Positions 31,825 to 43,195 of a stretch of 64,000 nucleotides of DNA are shown piece after piece (the stretch's first letter is position 1; each line of letters opens with the position of its first letter). Below the pieces are notes generated by a model. That model did not search any database, was not told the origin of the DNA, and saw only the letters and a program-made list of their open reading frames with translations. This stretch comes from Alphaproteobacteria bacterium (GTDB taxonomy: Bacteria > Pseudomonadota > Alphaproteobacteria > GCA-2731375), in assembly GCA_016776605.1 (NCBI GenBank), contig JADHTB010000002.1, positions 62,001 through 126,000 of the forward strand. Reading direction: 5' to 3'. The position numbers and the translations under genes are program-made.

Positions 31825-33042
31825 TTAAATCACTCCATTGGCCTGAAATGCCTCGATCTCGTCCGGGCTGTAGCCGGCTTCGGCCAGGATTTCGATGGCA
31901 TGTTCGCCGGGTGCCGCCGGTGGGCGGTCGATGGAGCCGCCGCCATGCGCGAGGCGAAAGCCGGAGCCGACCAGGTTCAAGGTGCCATAGGGGCTTTCCA
32001 CCGATTGCAGGACGTCTCTGTGCTGCAATTGCGGATGCTTCACGGCCTCGGCGATATTACGCACTTGGCTGGCGGGCGCCCCGGCTTCGGCCAGCCGCGC
32101 CTCCCAGGTGGCGATGTCATCTTTGGCGAAGGCGGTTTCGATGATCTGGCGCAGGGCCGGCTCGTTCTCGGCCCGGCCATGCCAATCCGCGAAACGCGGG
32201 TCGTCCAGCAATTCGGGTTGGCCAATGGCCTGCATCAAGGCCTGAAATTGCTTTTCCGTGTTCACCGCCAGGAGCAGATTATCGTCGCCCACCTTGAACA
32301 GATTGGCGGTGGGACGGCGGCTGATGGCCTGGTTGCCGTATTGGCCGTGCACGTGTCCGGTGGTGGTATGTTCGCTGATCAGCGGGGAGAGGAAGGTCAG
32401 GGTGGCATCCAGCATGGAGACATCAATGCATTGCCCCTGGCCCGTATGGCTGCGCTGAAACAAGGCCGAGGCGATGGCGAAGGCCGAGGTCATGCCGCCG
32501 ATGGCATCGCAGACGGCAAATCCGGCCCGTGTCGGCCCCGTGCCTTCATGTCCGGTAATGGACATGATGCCTGATACCGCCTGAATACGGCCATCGTAGG
32601 AAGGCGTATTGCGTTCTGGACCGTTTTGGCCAAAGCCCGACACCGCGCAATAGATCAGCCGGGGATTGATCGCCGCGAGCGCTTCATAGCCAATGCCAAG
32701 GCGGTCCATGACGCCGGGGCGGAAATTTTCCGTTACCACATCCGCCGTTTTGACCAGGCGTTTGACGATTTCGACGGCGGCCGGGTCCTTCATATCCAGG
32801 GCGATATTGCGCTTGTTGGCATTGATCGCCAGCCAACCAGGCGCCATGCCCCGGTCGCTCCATTCCTTGGACAGGGGGCCGTTGCGCATTTCCTCGCCGC
32901 CCGGCCGTTCCACCTTGATCACGTCGGCGCCCAGCAGGGCCAGTTGGAAGCTGCCGAATGGGCCGGCAAAGACCTGGGTGAAATCAAGCACCCGTATGCC
33001 TTCAAACGGCTTAGCGGATTGCCCGGTCGATCCTTCGGTCAT
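31825..33042 (-). CDS. CaiB/BaiF family CoA-transferase (class III)
   Basis: 405 residues. The N-terminal CoA-site signature VLDFTQVFAGPFGSFQLALLG, with IKVERPGGEEMR, is followed by the catalytic aspartate in SYDGRIQAVSGIMSI (about residue 148), as in formyl-CoA transferase. It moves CoA between carboxylic acids in the cytosol. Donor and acceptor are unknown. It lies 19 bp downstream of the first selenoprotein candidate on the same strand, so the two are probably co-transcribed. Confidence 0.93.
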   Translation of the reverse strand: MTEGSTGQSAKPFEGIRVLDFTQVFAGPFGSFQLALLGADVIKVERPGGEEMRNGPLSKEWSDRGMAPGWLAINANKRNIALDMKDPAAVEIVKRLVKTADVVTENFRPGVMDRLGIGYEALAAINPRLIYCAVSGFGQNGPERNTPSYDGRIQAVSGIMSITGHEGTGPTRAGFAVCDAIGGMTSAFAIASALFQRSHTGQGQCIDVSMLDATLTFLSPLISEHTTTGHVHGQYGNQAISRRPTANLFKVGDDNLLLAVNTEKQFQALMQAIGQPELLDDPRFADWHGRAENEPALRQIIETAFAKDDIATWEARLAEAGAPASQVRNIAEAVKHPQLQHRDVLQSVESPYGTLNLVGSGFRLAHGGGSIDRPPAAPGEHAIEILAEAGYSPDEIEAFQANGVI

Positions 33043-33061: not shown

Positions 33062-34021
33062 TCACTCTGCGGCGTCGGGCCGCGCCGCATCGTCCCGGCG
33101 TTCCTTGGCAATTCTTTTCACCTCGTCGAATTCAGCCCGGCGGCGGGCGATTTCCTCGGCCGGAATTCGTTCGATATTCTGGAAATCCAGTTTCCATTCG
33201 CCATTCCTGTTCCAGCGCTGCGGCGATTGCCGCGTGGTGCGCGGCCCCGTGGCGCTGGCCAGTAAATCCAGCGCCAGGGCCAGGGTTTCTTTCTGGGAAT
33301 TCAGCTCGTCGGGCTTGCCGGCGGCATTGCCCAGGGGAAAGTCACTGAACAGGAAGCGCGGCACGCCGCACAGTTCAACAATATCCTTGGCACAGCCCAT
33401 GATTACGGTGGGAATGCCGTTGGCTTCCAGGTAACGCGCTGTCAGACTCACGGTCTGATGGCACACGGGTCAAGCCGCGACGAGGATCGCCGCTTCGGCG
33501 CCATCTTCGCGTAGACGGGCCAGGACGTCGGGGCAATCCTGTTCCAGGGTGGCCTGTTGGCTGCGGTTGGTCGGGGTGCCATGAAAGCGCGGTGCCAGCG
33601 CCCCGATCCGGCCTTCCTGGGCGGCGATTTTTAACTGTGCCAAGGGGAAATAGCTGTTGAGGTCGGCGGCGGTGGTATATTTCCGATCATAGCCGAGATG
33701 GGAAATCCGCAGATCTGGTGCGCTGTCCACCAGGTCGGAATAGACCCGATAGAACTTGGCCGAAGCATTGTATGCGGCACCCGGACCTTGATCGCCCTTG
33801 TCGGGCTGATAGGGGGCCGCGGTGACGACCAGGCCGACCTTGGTTTCGCCAAGGGGTTTTGCCAGCGGCGTGAATGGCACCTCGTTATATTGCGCCCAAC
33901 GGTAGGGGTTGCCATAGCCAAGTGCGAGATAATAATCCCGCAACCGTTGCATGTAGGGCACCGGCCTATCATGTTCGGCGGCGAAACCCAGGTCGCCGTT
34001 GTCTATCCCACGTTCATTCAT
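33062..34021 (-). CDS. GrdB/PrdB-family selenoprotein candidate 1 (in-frame TGA read as Sec)
   Basis: One reading frame on the minus strand broken only by TGA at 33470-33472. Read as selenocysteine it gives 319 residues with Sec at 184 in the motif AAUPVCHQTV (U-x-x-C). Frame and similarity continue on both sides: before it GYDRKYTTAADLNSYFPLAQL and GRIGALAPRFHG, after it YLEANGIPTVIMGCAKD and FLFSDFPLGN. These match the glycine/sarcosine/betaine/D-proline reductase selenoprotein B family. A SECIS-like hairpin follows the UGA directly. ATG 34021 is preferred (AAGGTG upstream); GTG 34030 is possible. The C-terminal 40 residues are charged. A second gene at 40563 has the same break at the same residue, which argues against a random nonsense mutation. 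The reaction is unknown; reductive cleavage or thiol redox chemistry is a guess from the family. Confidence 0.82.
33434..33466 (-). promoter_or_regulatory. Putative bacterial SECIS element 1
   Basis: Starting 3 nt after the UGA, the mRNA folds as GUGUGC-CA-UCAGAC-(CGUGA)-GUCUGA-CA-GCGCGU. This is a 6-bp upper stem, a 2x2 internal loop and a 6-bp lower stem with G-U pairs. The apical loop holds GU with the G at +19 from the UGA, in the window used for bacterial SECIS recognition by SelB. Confidence 0.72.
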
Positions 34022-40562: not shown

Positions 40563-41378
40563 TTATTTTTTCAACTGCTTGGCCAGGGCCTCCGATGTTG
40601 TCTCGCCGGCGAAATAGACGAAATCATCATCCCATTGCAGGGGCAGATCGACCAGAATGCCGGGTTCCTGTGCGGTGACGGCAAAATCCAGCGCTGCGCG
40701 CAGGATTTTTGTCTGCATGGCGCTATCGCCCGCCCGCCCGAAGGTATTGCCCATGGGGAAATTGACGAACAGGCTGCGCGGCGGTCGCACCAGGGCGGTG
40801 ATGTCGCGTCCGGTCGAAACGGTGACGGTTGGAATGCCGCTCTCTTCAACAACTCTCGCTACCAGACCCACGGTCTGATGGTCGAGGGGTCAAGCCGGTA
40901 TGGCGATCAGCAGGTCTACGCCGTCCGCCTTCAGCGCCTCGACAAAGGCGGGGGCGGATTCCCCGATCACCTTGCTACGGTTATAGGTCCGGCCCATGAA
41001 GCCGCTCCACAGCCGGTTTGCAACCGCGCCAATCTCGCCGGCTGCCGCCAATTCGGCCAGTCGGTCGACGGGGAAGAGGCAGTTGAGGTCCCGGTCCGCG
41101 TCCGCATGATCGTAATAGCTGTCGTGGATCTGGTATTGGTCCAGCGGCGTACCGGGATCGATCGCATCGACCCGGTGATCGTTGCGCGCGTCCGGGTCGA
41201 ACGGCGGGGCGGCGCAATGGGAAATGCCGCCGCTGACCAGCATGCCGACGGTGCAGTCCGCCAATGGCTTGGTCAGTGGGGTCCATGGCGCGCTGTCATT
41301 TTCGCTCCATTTATAGGGCGGAAAACCCATGGCGCCGTATTTATTGTTCAGGGCATCGACATAACGGATCGGTTCCAT
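40563..41378 (-). CDS. GrdB/PrdB-family selenoprotein candidate 2 (in-frame TGA read as Sec)
   Basis: A continuous minus-strand frame interrupted only by TGA at 40890-40892. Read as Sec it gives 271 residues with Sec at 163 in IPAUPLDHQTV. It is paralogous to the gene at 33062 over its whole length: PWTPLTKPL, DADRDLNCLFPVDRLAELAAAGEIGAVA in two parts, VVEESGIPTVTVSTGRD, SLFVNFPMGN. The cysteine of the U-x-x-C motif is aspartate here. The start ATG 41378 has a strong AAGGAGG site (41389-41395). A SECIS-like hairpin follows the UGA. It is monocistronic. Alternative explanation: a pseudogene, disfavoured by the intact frame after the TGA and the matching break in the paralogue. Confidence 0.82.
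40855..40886 (-). promoter_or_regulatory. Putative bacterial SECIS element 2
   Basis: Three nt after the UGA the mRNA folds as CUCG-ACC-AUCAGACC-(GUG)-GGUCUGGU-AG-CGAG. The apical G is again at +19. The upper stem is almost identical to SECIS 1 while the lower stem differs in sequence but still pairs. Confidence 0.72.
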
Positions 41379-42114: not shown

Positions 42115-43143
42115 CTACTGGAAATGTGGCAGAACTTTTTCGGTGAACATGACGAATGAGGCATGGCTGAGCGGTGCGATCATCAGGTATTCCAGCGGCA
42201 GGGTTTCCTGCATTTCCTGGATATCGTCGATGACTTTCTCGGGCGTGCCGCAAATGGCGATGTCATTCACATAGCGCGCCACCGGGTCGTCTTCTCCCTC
42301 CAGCGACTTGTCCAGGGCTTCCACCTGCATGGTTTTTTGCGCGCCGGCGGCGGTACCGCGGATATTCGCCTTTTTGCGCAGATAGCTGCCGAACATGAAT
42401 TCCGCGCCGCGCCGGCCCACGTCCTCGGCCTCGGCCGCGGTGGCGCCCATGGCCAGGGTCCGCGCCATGGGAATATCCCGTCCGGCCATTGAAAAACCGG
42501 CGGCCTCCAGAGATTGCTTGTAGAGAGCGCGTTTCTTGGCGATTTCCGGGTGCGTGGCGTGGGGATCCATCATGATGGAGTGACCGCGTTGGGCAGTCCA
42601 TTCCAGCGCCTCCAGGGAGGTGGCGGCAAGCCAGACCGGCATCGGGTCCTGTAGCGGCTTTGGCAGCACCTCAACATCCTCGAACTGCCAGAATTCGCCC
42701 TGATGGTTAAGTTTGTCGTTTTCCCAAACCTTGAGAACGATTTCCACCGCCTCGCGGAACCGGGCGTAGCTTTCCTTGGGCTCGACACCGAAAATCTTGT
42801 GCTCGGTCGGGTCAAAGCCGCGCCCCGCGCCCCAGTTCACCCGGCCGCCCGAGACATGGTCCAACAGGGCCACTTCCTCGGCCAGGCGCAGGGGATGGTA
42901 AAACGAGGCCAGCGAGACCGCCGTGCCAATGCGCAATTTCTTGGTACGCGCCGCGATATGGGCGCCCATGACATGCACCGAGGGGCAGACGCTGTAGGTG
43001 GAGAAATGATGCTCGGCCAGCCAGACCGCGTCATAGCCGGTCTTGTCCATGACCTCCATGCGGTGAAAGGCCCGGTCATAGACGGTTGCCAGCGGCACCC
43101 GCCGGCCCGGCCAACTGAAAAACTGAAGCACGCCGAATTTCAT
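42115..43143 (-). CDS. LLM class flavin-dependent oxidoreductase
   Basis: 342 residues from ATG 43143, preceded by a GGAGGTGG site. Bacterial luciferase-like TIM barrel: MKFGVLQFFSWPG, WLAEHHFSTYSVCPSVHVMGA (partly), GWGAGRGFDPTEH-type loop and DPMPVWLAATSLEALEWTA. Such enzymes use FMNH2 or F420 to oxidise small organic molecules. The substrate is unknown. It lies alone between the YqaJ gene and the VWA gene. Confidence 0.9.
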   Translation of the reverse strand: MKFGVLQFFSWPGRRVPLATVYDRAFHRMEVMDKTGYDAVWLAEHHFSTYSVCPSVHVMGAHIAARTKKLRIGTAVSLASFYHPLRLAEEVALLDHVSGGRVNWGAGRGFDPTEHKIFGVEPKESYARFREAVEIVLKVWENDKLNHQGEFWQFEDVEVLPKPLQDPMPVWLAATSLEALEWTAQRGHSIMMDPHATHPEIAKKRALYKQSLEAAGFSMAGRDIPMARTLAMGATAAEAEDVGRRGAEFMFGSYLRKKANIRGTAAGAQKTMQVEALDKSLEGEDDPVARYVNDIAICGTPEKVIDDIQEMQETLPLEYLMIAPLSHASFVMFTEKVLPHFQ

Positions 43144-43195
43144 GATGCCACCTCCCACTGAAACAATACAAAACGCAATGTCGATATTTAGGTAC

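Follow-up and report, generated by a model that had tools for sequence, protein, structure and literature searches.

The two hairpins that directly follow in-frame UGA codons in a pair of paralogous genes (here called P1 and P2) of a marine alphaproteobacterium are almost certainly bacterial SECIS elements, lying within the coding sequence of two PrdB/GrdB-like selenoproteins. Among homologues the hairpins are conserved, selection acts on both their silent sites and their base pairs, and they are lost where selenocysteine (Sec) is replaced by cysteine. We infer that SelB binds the hairpins and that Sec is inserted. In the proposed mechanism, a ribosome arriving at the UGA would meet a downstream hairpin (stem 14-19/25-30, loop C-G-U-G-R, counting the U of the UGA as 0) bound by SelB carrying Sec-tRNA-Sec, and because of this binding the UGA would specify the selenocysteine of the active-site motif U-P-x-C/D-H-Q-T. 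Both genes lie in the window, the whole 64,000-nucleotide stretch of DNA that was analysed, and the features concerned are as follows.

40563..41378, minus strand: P2, a 271-aa PrdB/GrdB-like protein (PF07355) with the motif U-P-L-D-H-Q-T and a single in-frame UGA, from translation, Pfam, NCBIfam and orthologues with a UGA at the same site.
40890..40892, minus strand: predicted Sec UGA of P2, codon 163, aligned with the Cys of the CPLD homologue L170.
40855..40886, minus strand: predicted SECIS hairpin of P2, with upper stem AUCAGACC/GGUCUGGU, apical loop GUG and lower stem CUCG/CGAG, from the fold, a covariance model (50.6 bits) and homologues.
33062..34021, minus strand: P1, a 319-aa PrdB/GrdB-like protein with the motif U-P-V-C-H-Q-T and a single in-frame UGA, from translation, Pfam, NCBIfam and 80 orthologues.
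33470..33472, minus strand: predicted Sec UGA of P1, codon 184, where 19 of the 80 orthologues have TGC/TGT.
33434..33466, minus strand: predicted SECIS hairpin of P1, with upper stem UCAGAC/GUCUGA, loop CGUGA and lower stem GUGC/GCGC, from the fold, the covariance model (64.1 bits) and orthologues.

P1 and P2 are paralogues that share 36% protein identity. Both score above the Pfam gathering cut-off of 22 bits for the GRDB superfamily PF07355 (24.5 and 31.2 bits), the family of glycine/sarcosine/betaine reductase selenoprotein B. The best NCBIfam match of each is the D-proline reductase PrdB (TIGR04483), at 136.8 and 90.0 bits; identity as PrdB itself was rejected, and the proteins are called PrdB-like because these scores fall far under the equivalog cut-off of 300 bits, which neither reaches. 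The UxxC motif, with a Cys three residues past the Sec, is present in P1 (UPVC) and absent from P2 and its orthologues, which have UPLD instead. Searching the PDB by sequence for P1 and P2 returned chance matches only, and thus no sequence-based solved template for either protein.

A sequence-only reading of this DNA had described near-identical RNA after the two UGAs, and direct comparison bears this out, as the 18-mer CAUCAGACCGUG(G/A)GUCUG differs by one base between the genes. In both genes the apical G-U begins with a G (loop position 21) that is base 19 after the UGA, just as that reading had placed it. Both regions fold well, with -14.9 kcal/mol for 40855-40886 of P2 (z -2.7, 4 of 200 shuffles as good) and -13.6 kcal/mol for 33434-33466 of P1 (z -2.8, 2 of 200 as good). 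Common to the two is the helix 14-19/25-30 around the loop C20-G-U-G-R24, which in P2 is longer by C20-G24 and A13-U31, giving upper stems of 6 bp (P1) and 8 bp (P2) and distances from UGA to loop of 17 and 18 nt. In P1 the lower stem joins positions 8-11 to 33-36; in P2 it joins 6-9 to 34-37 and has one bulge.

The bSECIS model of Zhang & Gladyshev, as given in PMC13188914, places a hairpin right after the UGA with its loop 16-37 nt away, and specifies an apical loop of 3-9 nt, an upper stem of 4-16 bp, an MFE of at most -7.5 kcal/mol, and a G as the first or second loop base with G or U next to it (pattern N-G-[G/U]-N-N). The hairpins of P1 and P2, with their loop C-G-U-G-R, agree with this model in distance, loop G, stem length and energy, and show no difference in kind; the ends of the five-base loop form a C-G pair in P2 and a C-A mismatch in P1. 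Two further attributes of a bSECIS were also found, namely selection in Sec but not in Cys homologues, and a genome that encodes tRNA-Sec, SelA, SelB and SelD.

Taken alone, the comparison of the two genes is suggestive, weak and not significant. With the protein held fixed and synonymous codons drawn by local usage, a 5-bp stem arises by chance in 4.0% of resamplings for P1 and 10.0% for P2, while at sites with identical residues the codons of P1 and P2 match in 7 of 8 cases inside the element (the UGA left out) and in 43 of 82 outside it, a marginal difference (p = 0.058). Such figures would fit an incidental hairpin, its nucleotide identity stemming from the conserved peptide HQTV-x-L together with codon bias, and the lower-stem pairs C11-G33 and G10-C34, which form in Cys homologues too, favor the same explanation. 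The earlier argument for RNA-level selection was therefore under-powered as drawn from two genes, and turned out to be right once homologues were compared.

The homologue set consisted of paralogues from the same genome and from close relatives, 80 P1 orthologues from named genomes, and further matches at the class and phylum level. The source genome has seven PrdB/GrdB-like paralogues with exactly one TGA each (G000, contigs C18, C25, C26, C32 and C44), and the closest relatives have six to eleven matches each (up to 11 in G005 and up to 9 in G002). A complete 5-bp stem is found in 113 of 128 distinct UGA homologue sequences and in 0 of 41 distinct Cys ones (after one spurious Cys entry was taken out), counts of related and hence not independent sequences; the first homologue set gave 106 of 121 for UGA versus 0 of 24 for Cys (Fisher p = 1.6e-17). 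The P1 orthologues, which carry TGA (61) or TGC/TGT (19) at the same codon, give the sharpest comparison with codon usage: the complete stem is present in 59 of the 61 UGA orthologues where 2.1 are expected, and in none of the 19 Cys orthologues (expectation 0.24). Silent sites follow the same pattern, in that AGU encodes the Ser of the stem's 3' arm in 59 of 59 UGA P1 orthologues (versus 6% of Ser codons in the remainder of these genes), GUG encodes the loop Val in 60 of 61 (background 37%), and CUG encodes the Leu in 60 of 61 (background 55%). In Cys homologues whose HQT peptide is the same, Ser and Val are encoded by other codons. On the P1 tree, well-supported branches force two changes between UGA and Cys (the best tree has six), and on average the stem accompanies the UGA in 1.9 of the two well-supported changes, two contrasts being too few for significance.

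Homologues from related genomes that keep the UGA and lose the stem had been named as the observation that would tell against a SECIS function; none were encountered, because a hairpin is present in all UGA homologues examined. Fifteen of the 121 distinct UGA sequences in the first homologue set miss at least one of the five pairs, and every one still has a hairpin, 14 of them with a single mismatch and one (L141) with a different hairpin. The majority are GrdB-like paralogues (motif ...TRAV...) that mispair once in this register. A single stem mismatch also occurs in each of L098, L134 and L189/L193, and within the P1 clade several sequences have a mismatched C-A at pair 14-30. L141 (G011:C111) is a GrdB-like UGA homologue with the sequence UPDCCRNV, and its shifted hairpin, CGUGCC/GGCACG around the loop CGUGCU, lies 23 nt past the UGA, within the bSECIS constraints.

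Base pairing itself also bears the mark of selection. Across 30 diverse UGA sequences, four of the six upper-stem pairs have changed on both sides with pairing preserved, for example G17-C27 to C-G or A-U, A18-U26 to G-C or U-A, and U14-A30 to C-G or G-C. These 30 sequences give a covariation score of 0.364, versus 0.176 +/- 0.020 for shuffled data (0 of 500 as high) and a maximum of 0.144 in slid registers. RNAalifold predicts exactly the upper stem from UGA sequences and no consensus helix from 22 Cys sequences, and when codons were permuted within amino acids, the 742 upper-stem pairs exceeded the best of 500 permutations (717). The lower stem behaves differently. It had been proposed that the lower stems differ in sequence and still pair, and they do pair in both genes, but their registers differ and no consensus helix extends across homologues: RNAalifold predicts none, and lower-stem pairing is no better than in codon-permuted data (358 versus a mean of 360). 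An excess of GCA at the Ala codon facing U9 (33 of 60 UGA P1 orthologues versus 7% usage) is the sole signal speaking for the lower stem, which overall is weakly supported.

Together, the compensatory changes in the upper stem, the 59 complete stems where 2.1 are expected, and the Cys homologues that have the same HQT peptide without the stem make an incidental hairpin very improbable; for the upper stem, that explanation is refuted by the Cys-homologue control. It is more improbable still that the UGA is a true stop, or that the genes are decayed, split or affected by a sequencing error, even though standard gene-calling programs would report each gene as two ORFs divided at the UGA (in P1, 33062-33466 and 33470-34030). 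In more than 100 homologues from independent assemblies this codon is the sole TGA, other homologues have Cys at the same place, and the peptide past the UGA is as conserved as the peptide before it, so that the conserved UGA and the conserved downstream frame refute this possibility. One consequence of the SECIS assignment is a firm annotation for two genes that would otherwise be cut.

A further alternative accepts a functional hairpin, but has it drive stop readthrough or the insertion of another residue (Trp or Cys), with no need for the Sec machinery. The source genome encodes tRNA-Sec (67.8 bits) on a contig other than the window's, SelA and SelB that adjoin each other, and SelD. Over 44 genomes, SelB is found in 18 of 20 with a UGA homologue versus 1 of 24 with Cys-only homologues (no in-frame stop at that codon). 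The SelB search gave no match in two UGA genomes, G025 (77% complete) and G325 (95% complete), which is what Sec-independent readthrough would allow; both are drafts, and the gap is probably due to missing contigs, although recent transfer or ongoing decay of the UGA homologues in these two genomes is another possibility. Among the homologues examined the UGA stands opposite Cys and never Trp, and the hairpins satisfy all constraints of the bSECIS model (PMC13188914). Moreover, the terminator of P1 is also UGA (33062-33064), and thus UGA still acts as a stop. Readthrough independent of Sec is accordingly highly unlikely, and Sec insertion at a SECIS element is the preferred explanation for both genes. 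The source genome has two selD genes (G000:C32:330101-331027 and C2:25699-26616), one of which has an in-frame TGA and is likely a selenoprotein itself, while the other copy lies inside a 771-aa frame and is possibly a fusion.

Run over the whole genome, a covariance model built on the element gives seven matches (50.6-66.6 bits), which are exactly the seven paralogues, with the next match at 20.9 bits; in the window it finds the P1 and P2 elements only. At gathering thresholds Rfam gave no matches in the window, and a tRNA scan found no tRNA there.

Both the SECIS kind and the PrdB-like (PF07355) selenoprotein family are already known, and the elements are ordinary members of their kind, leaving the picture of bacterial SECIS function unchanged. 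Selenoproteins named 'proline reductase PrdB' (UxxC) account for 42 and 235 sequences in the Sargasso Sea and GOS data, rank with the most abundant selenoprotein families of both surveys, and form the third most abundant known selenoprotein family in the Sargasso Sea data (PMC1088965, PMC2398784). Compared at the family level, these marine proteins are of the same PF07355 type, and share the Sec UxxC with P1, whereas the P2 clade has UxxD. Clostridial PrdB (TIGR04483) and the glycine/sarcosine/betaine reductase proteins B (GrdB, GrdF and GrdH) have a homologous domain around the Sec site; as differences, P1 adjoins a CoA-transferase III gene, and P1 and P2 both score far under the PrdB cut-off. 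A search for GrdA gave no match in the source genome, nor in any control genome. Several GrdB-type selenoproteins per genome are likewise known, as in Cloacibacillus porcorum with its eight predicted grdB genes with SECIS (PMC10838667). Literature searches on the function of alphaproteobacterial PrdB-like proteins yielded nothing specific. What is added here is the Sec/Cys control within one family, the UxxD clade of P2 and the conserved gene neighbors. The control amounts to a clean natural experiment, in which the SECIS hairpin of a single protein family persists with the UGA and decays once the codon becomes Cys, and seven selenoprotein paralogues in one genome provide a handle on the selenium need of marine alphaproteobacteria.

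In the P2 clade (L007-L018), Asp replaces the resolving Cys in every UGA member seen (UPLDHQT), and the rest of the homologues carry U-x-x-C. The clade may tentatively be regarded as a conserved PrdB-like selenoprotein subfamily in its own right, in which the resolving Cys of U-x-x-C has become Asp, a proposal somewhat short of an even case. If so, selenocysteine in the P2 clade would work without a partner Cys at that position, and the clade would perhaps catalyze a reaction other than that of the UxxC paralogues. The homologue L170, 58% identical to P2, has CPLDHQT; a luciferase-like gene lies immediately upstream of L170, and its genome gave no SelB match.

Two neighboring genes in the window recur beside the orthologues.

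31825..33042, minus strand: CoA-transferase family III (CaiB/BaiF), directly downstream of P1, from Pfam and the neighborhood.
42115..43158, minus strand: luciferase-like flavin monooxygenase, upstream of P2 and separated from it by a YqaJ gene, from Pfam and the neighborhood.

A CoA-transferase III gene neighbors P1 orthologues at 65 of 80 loci, in UGA and Cys versions alike, suggesting that the two proteins act in a common pathway. A luciferase-like gene lies near P2 at 6 of 11 loci in relatives.
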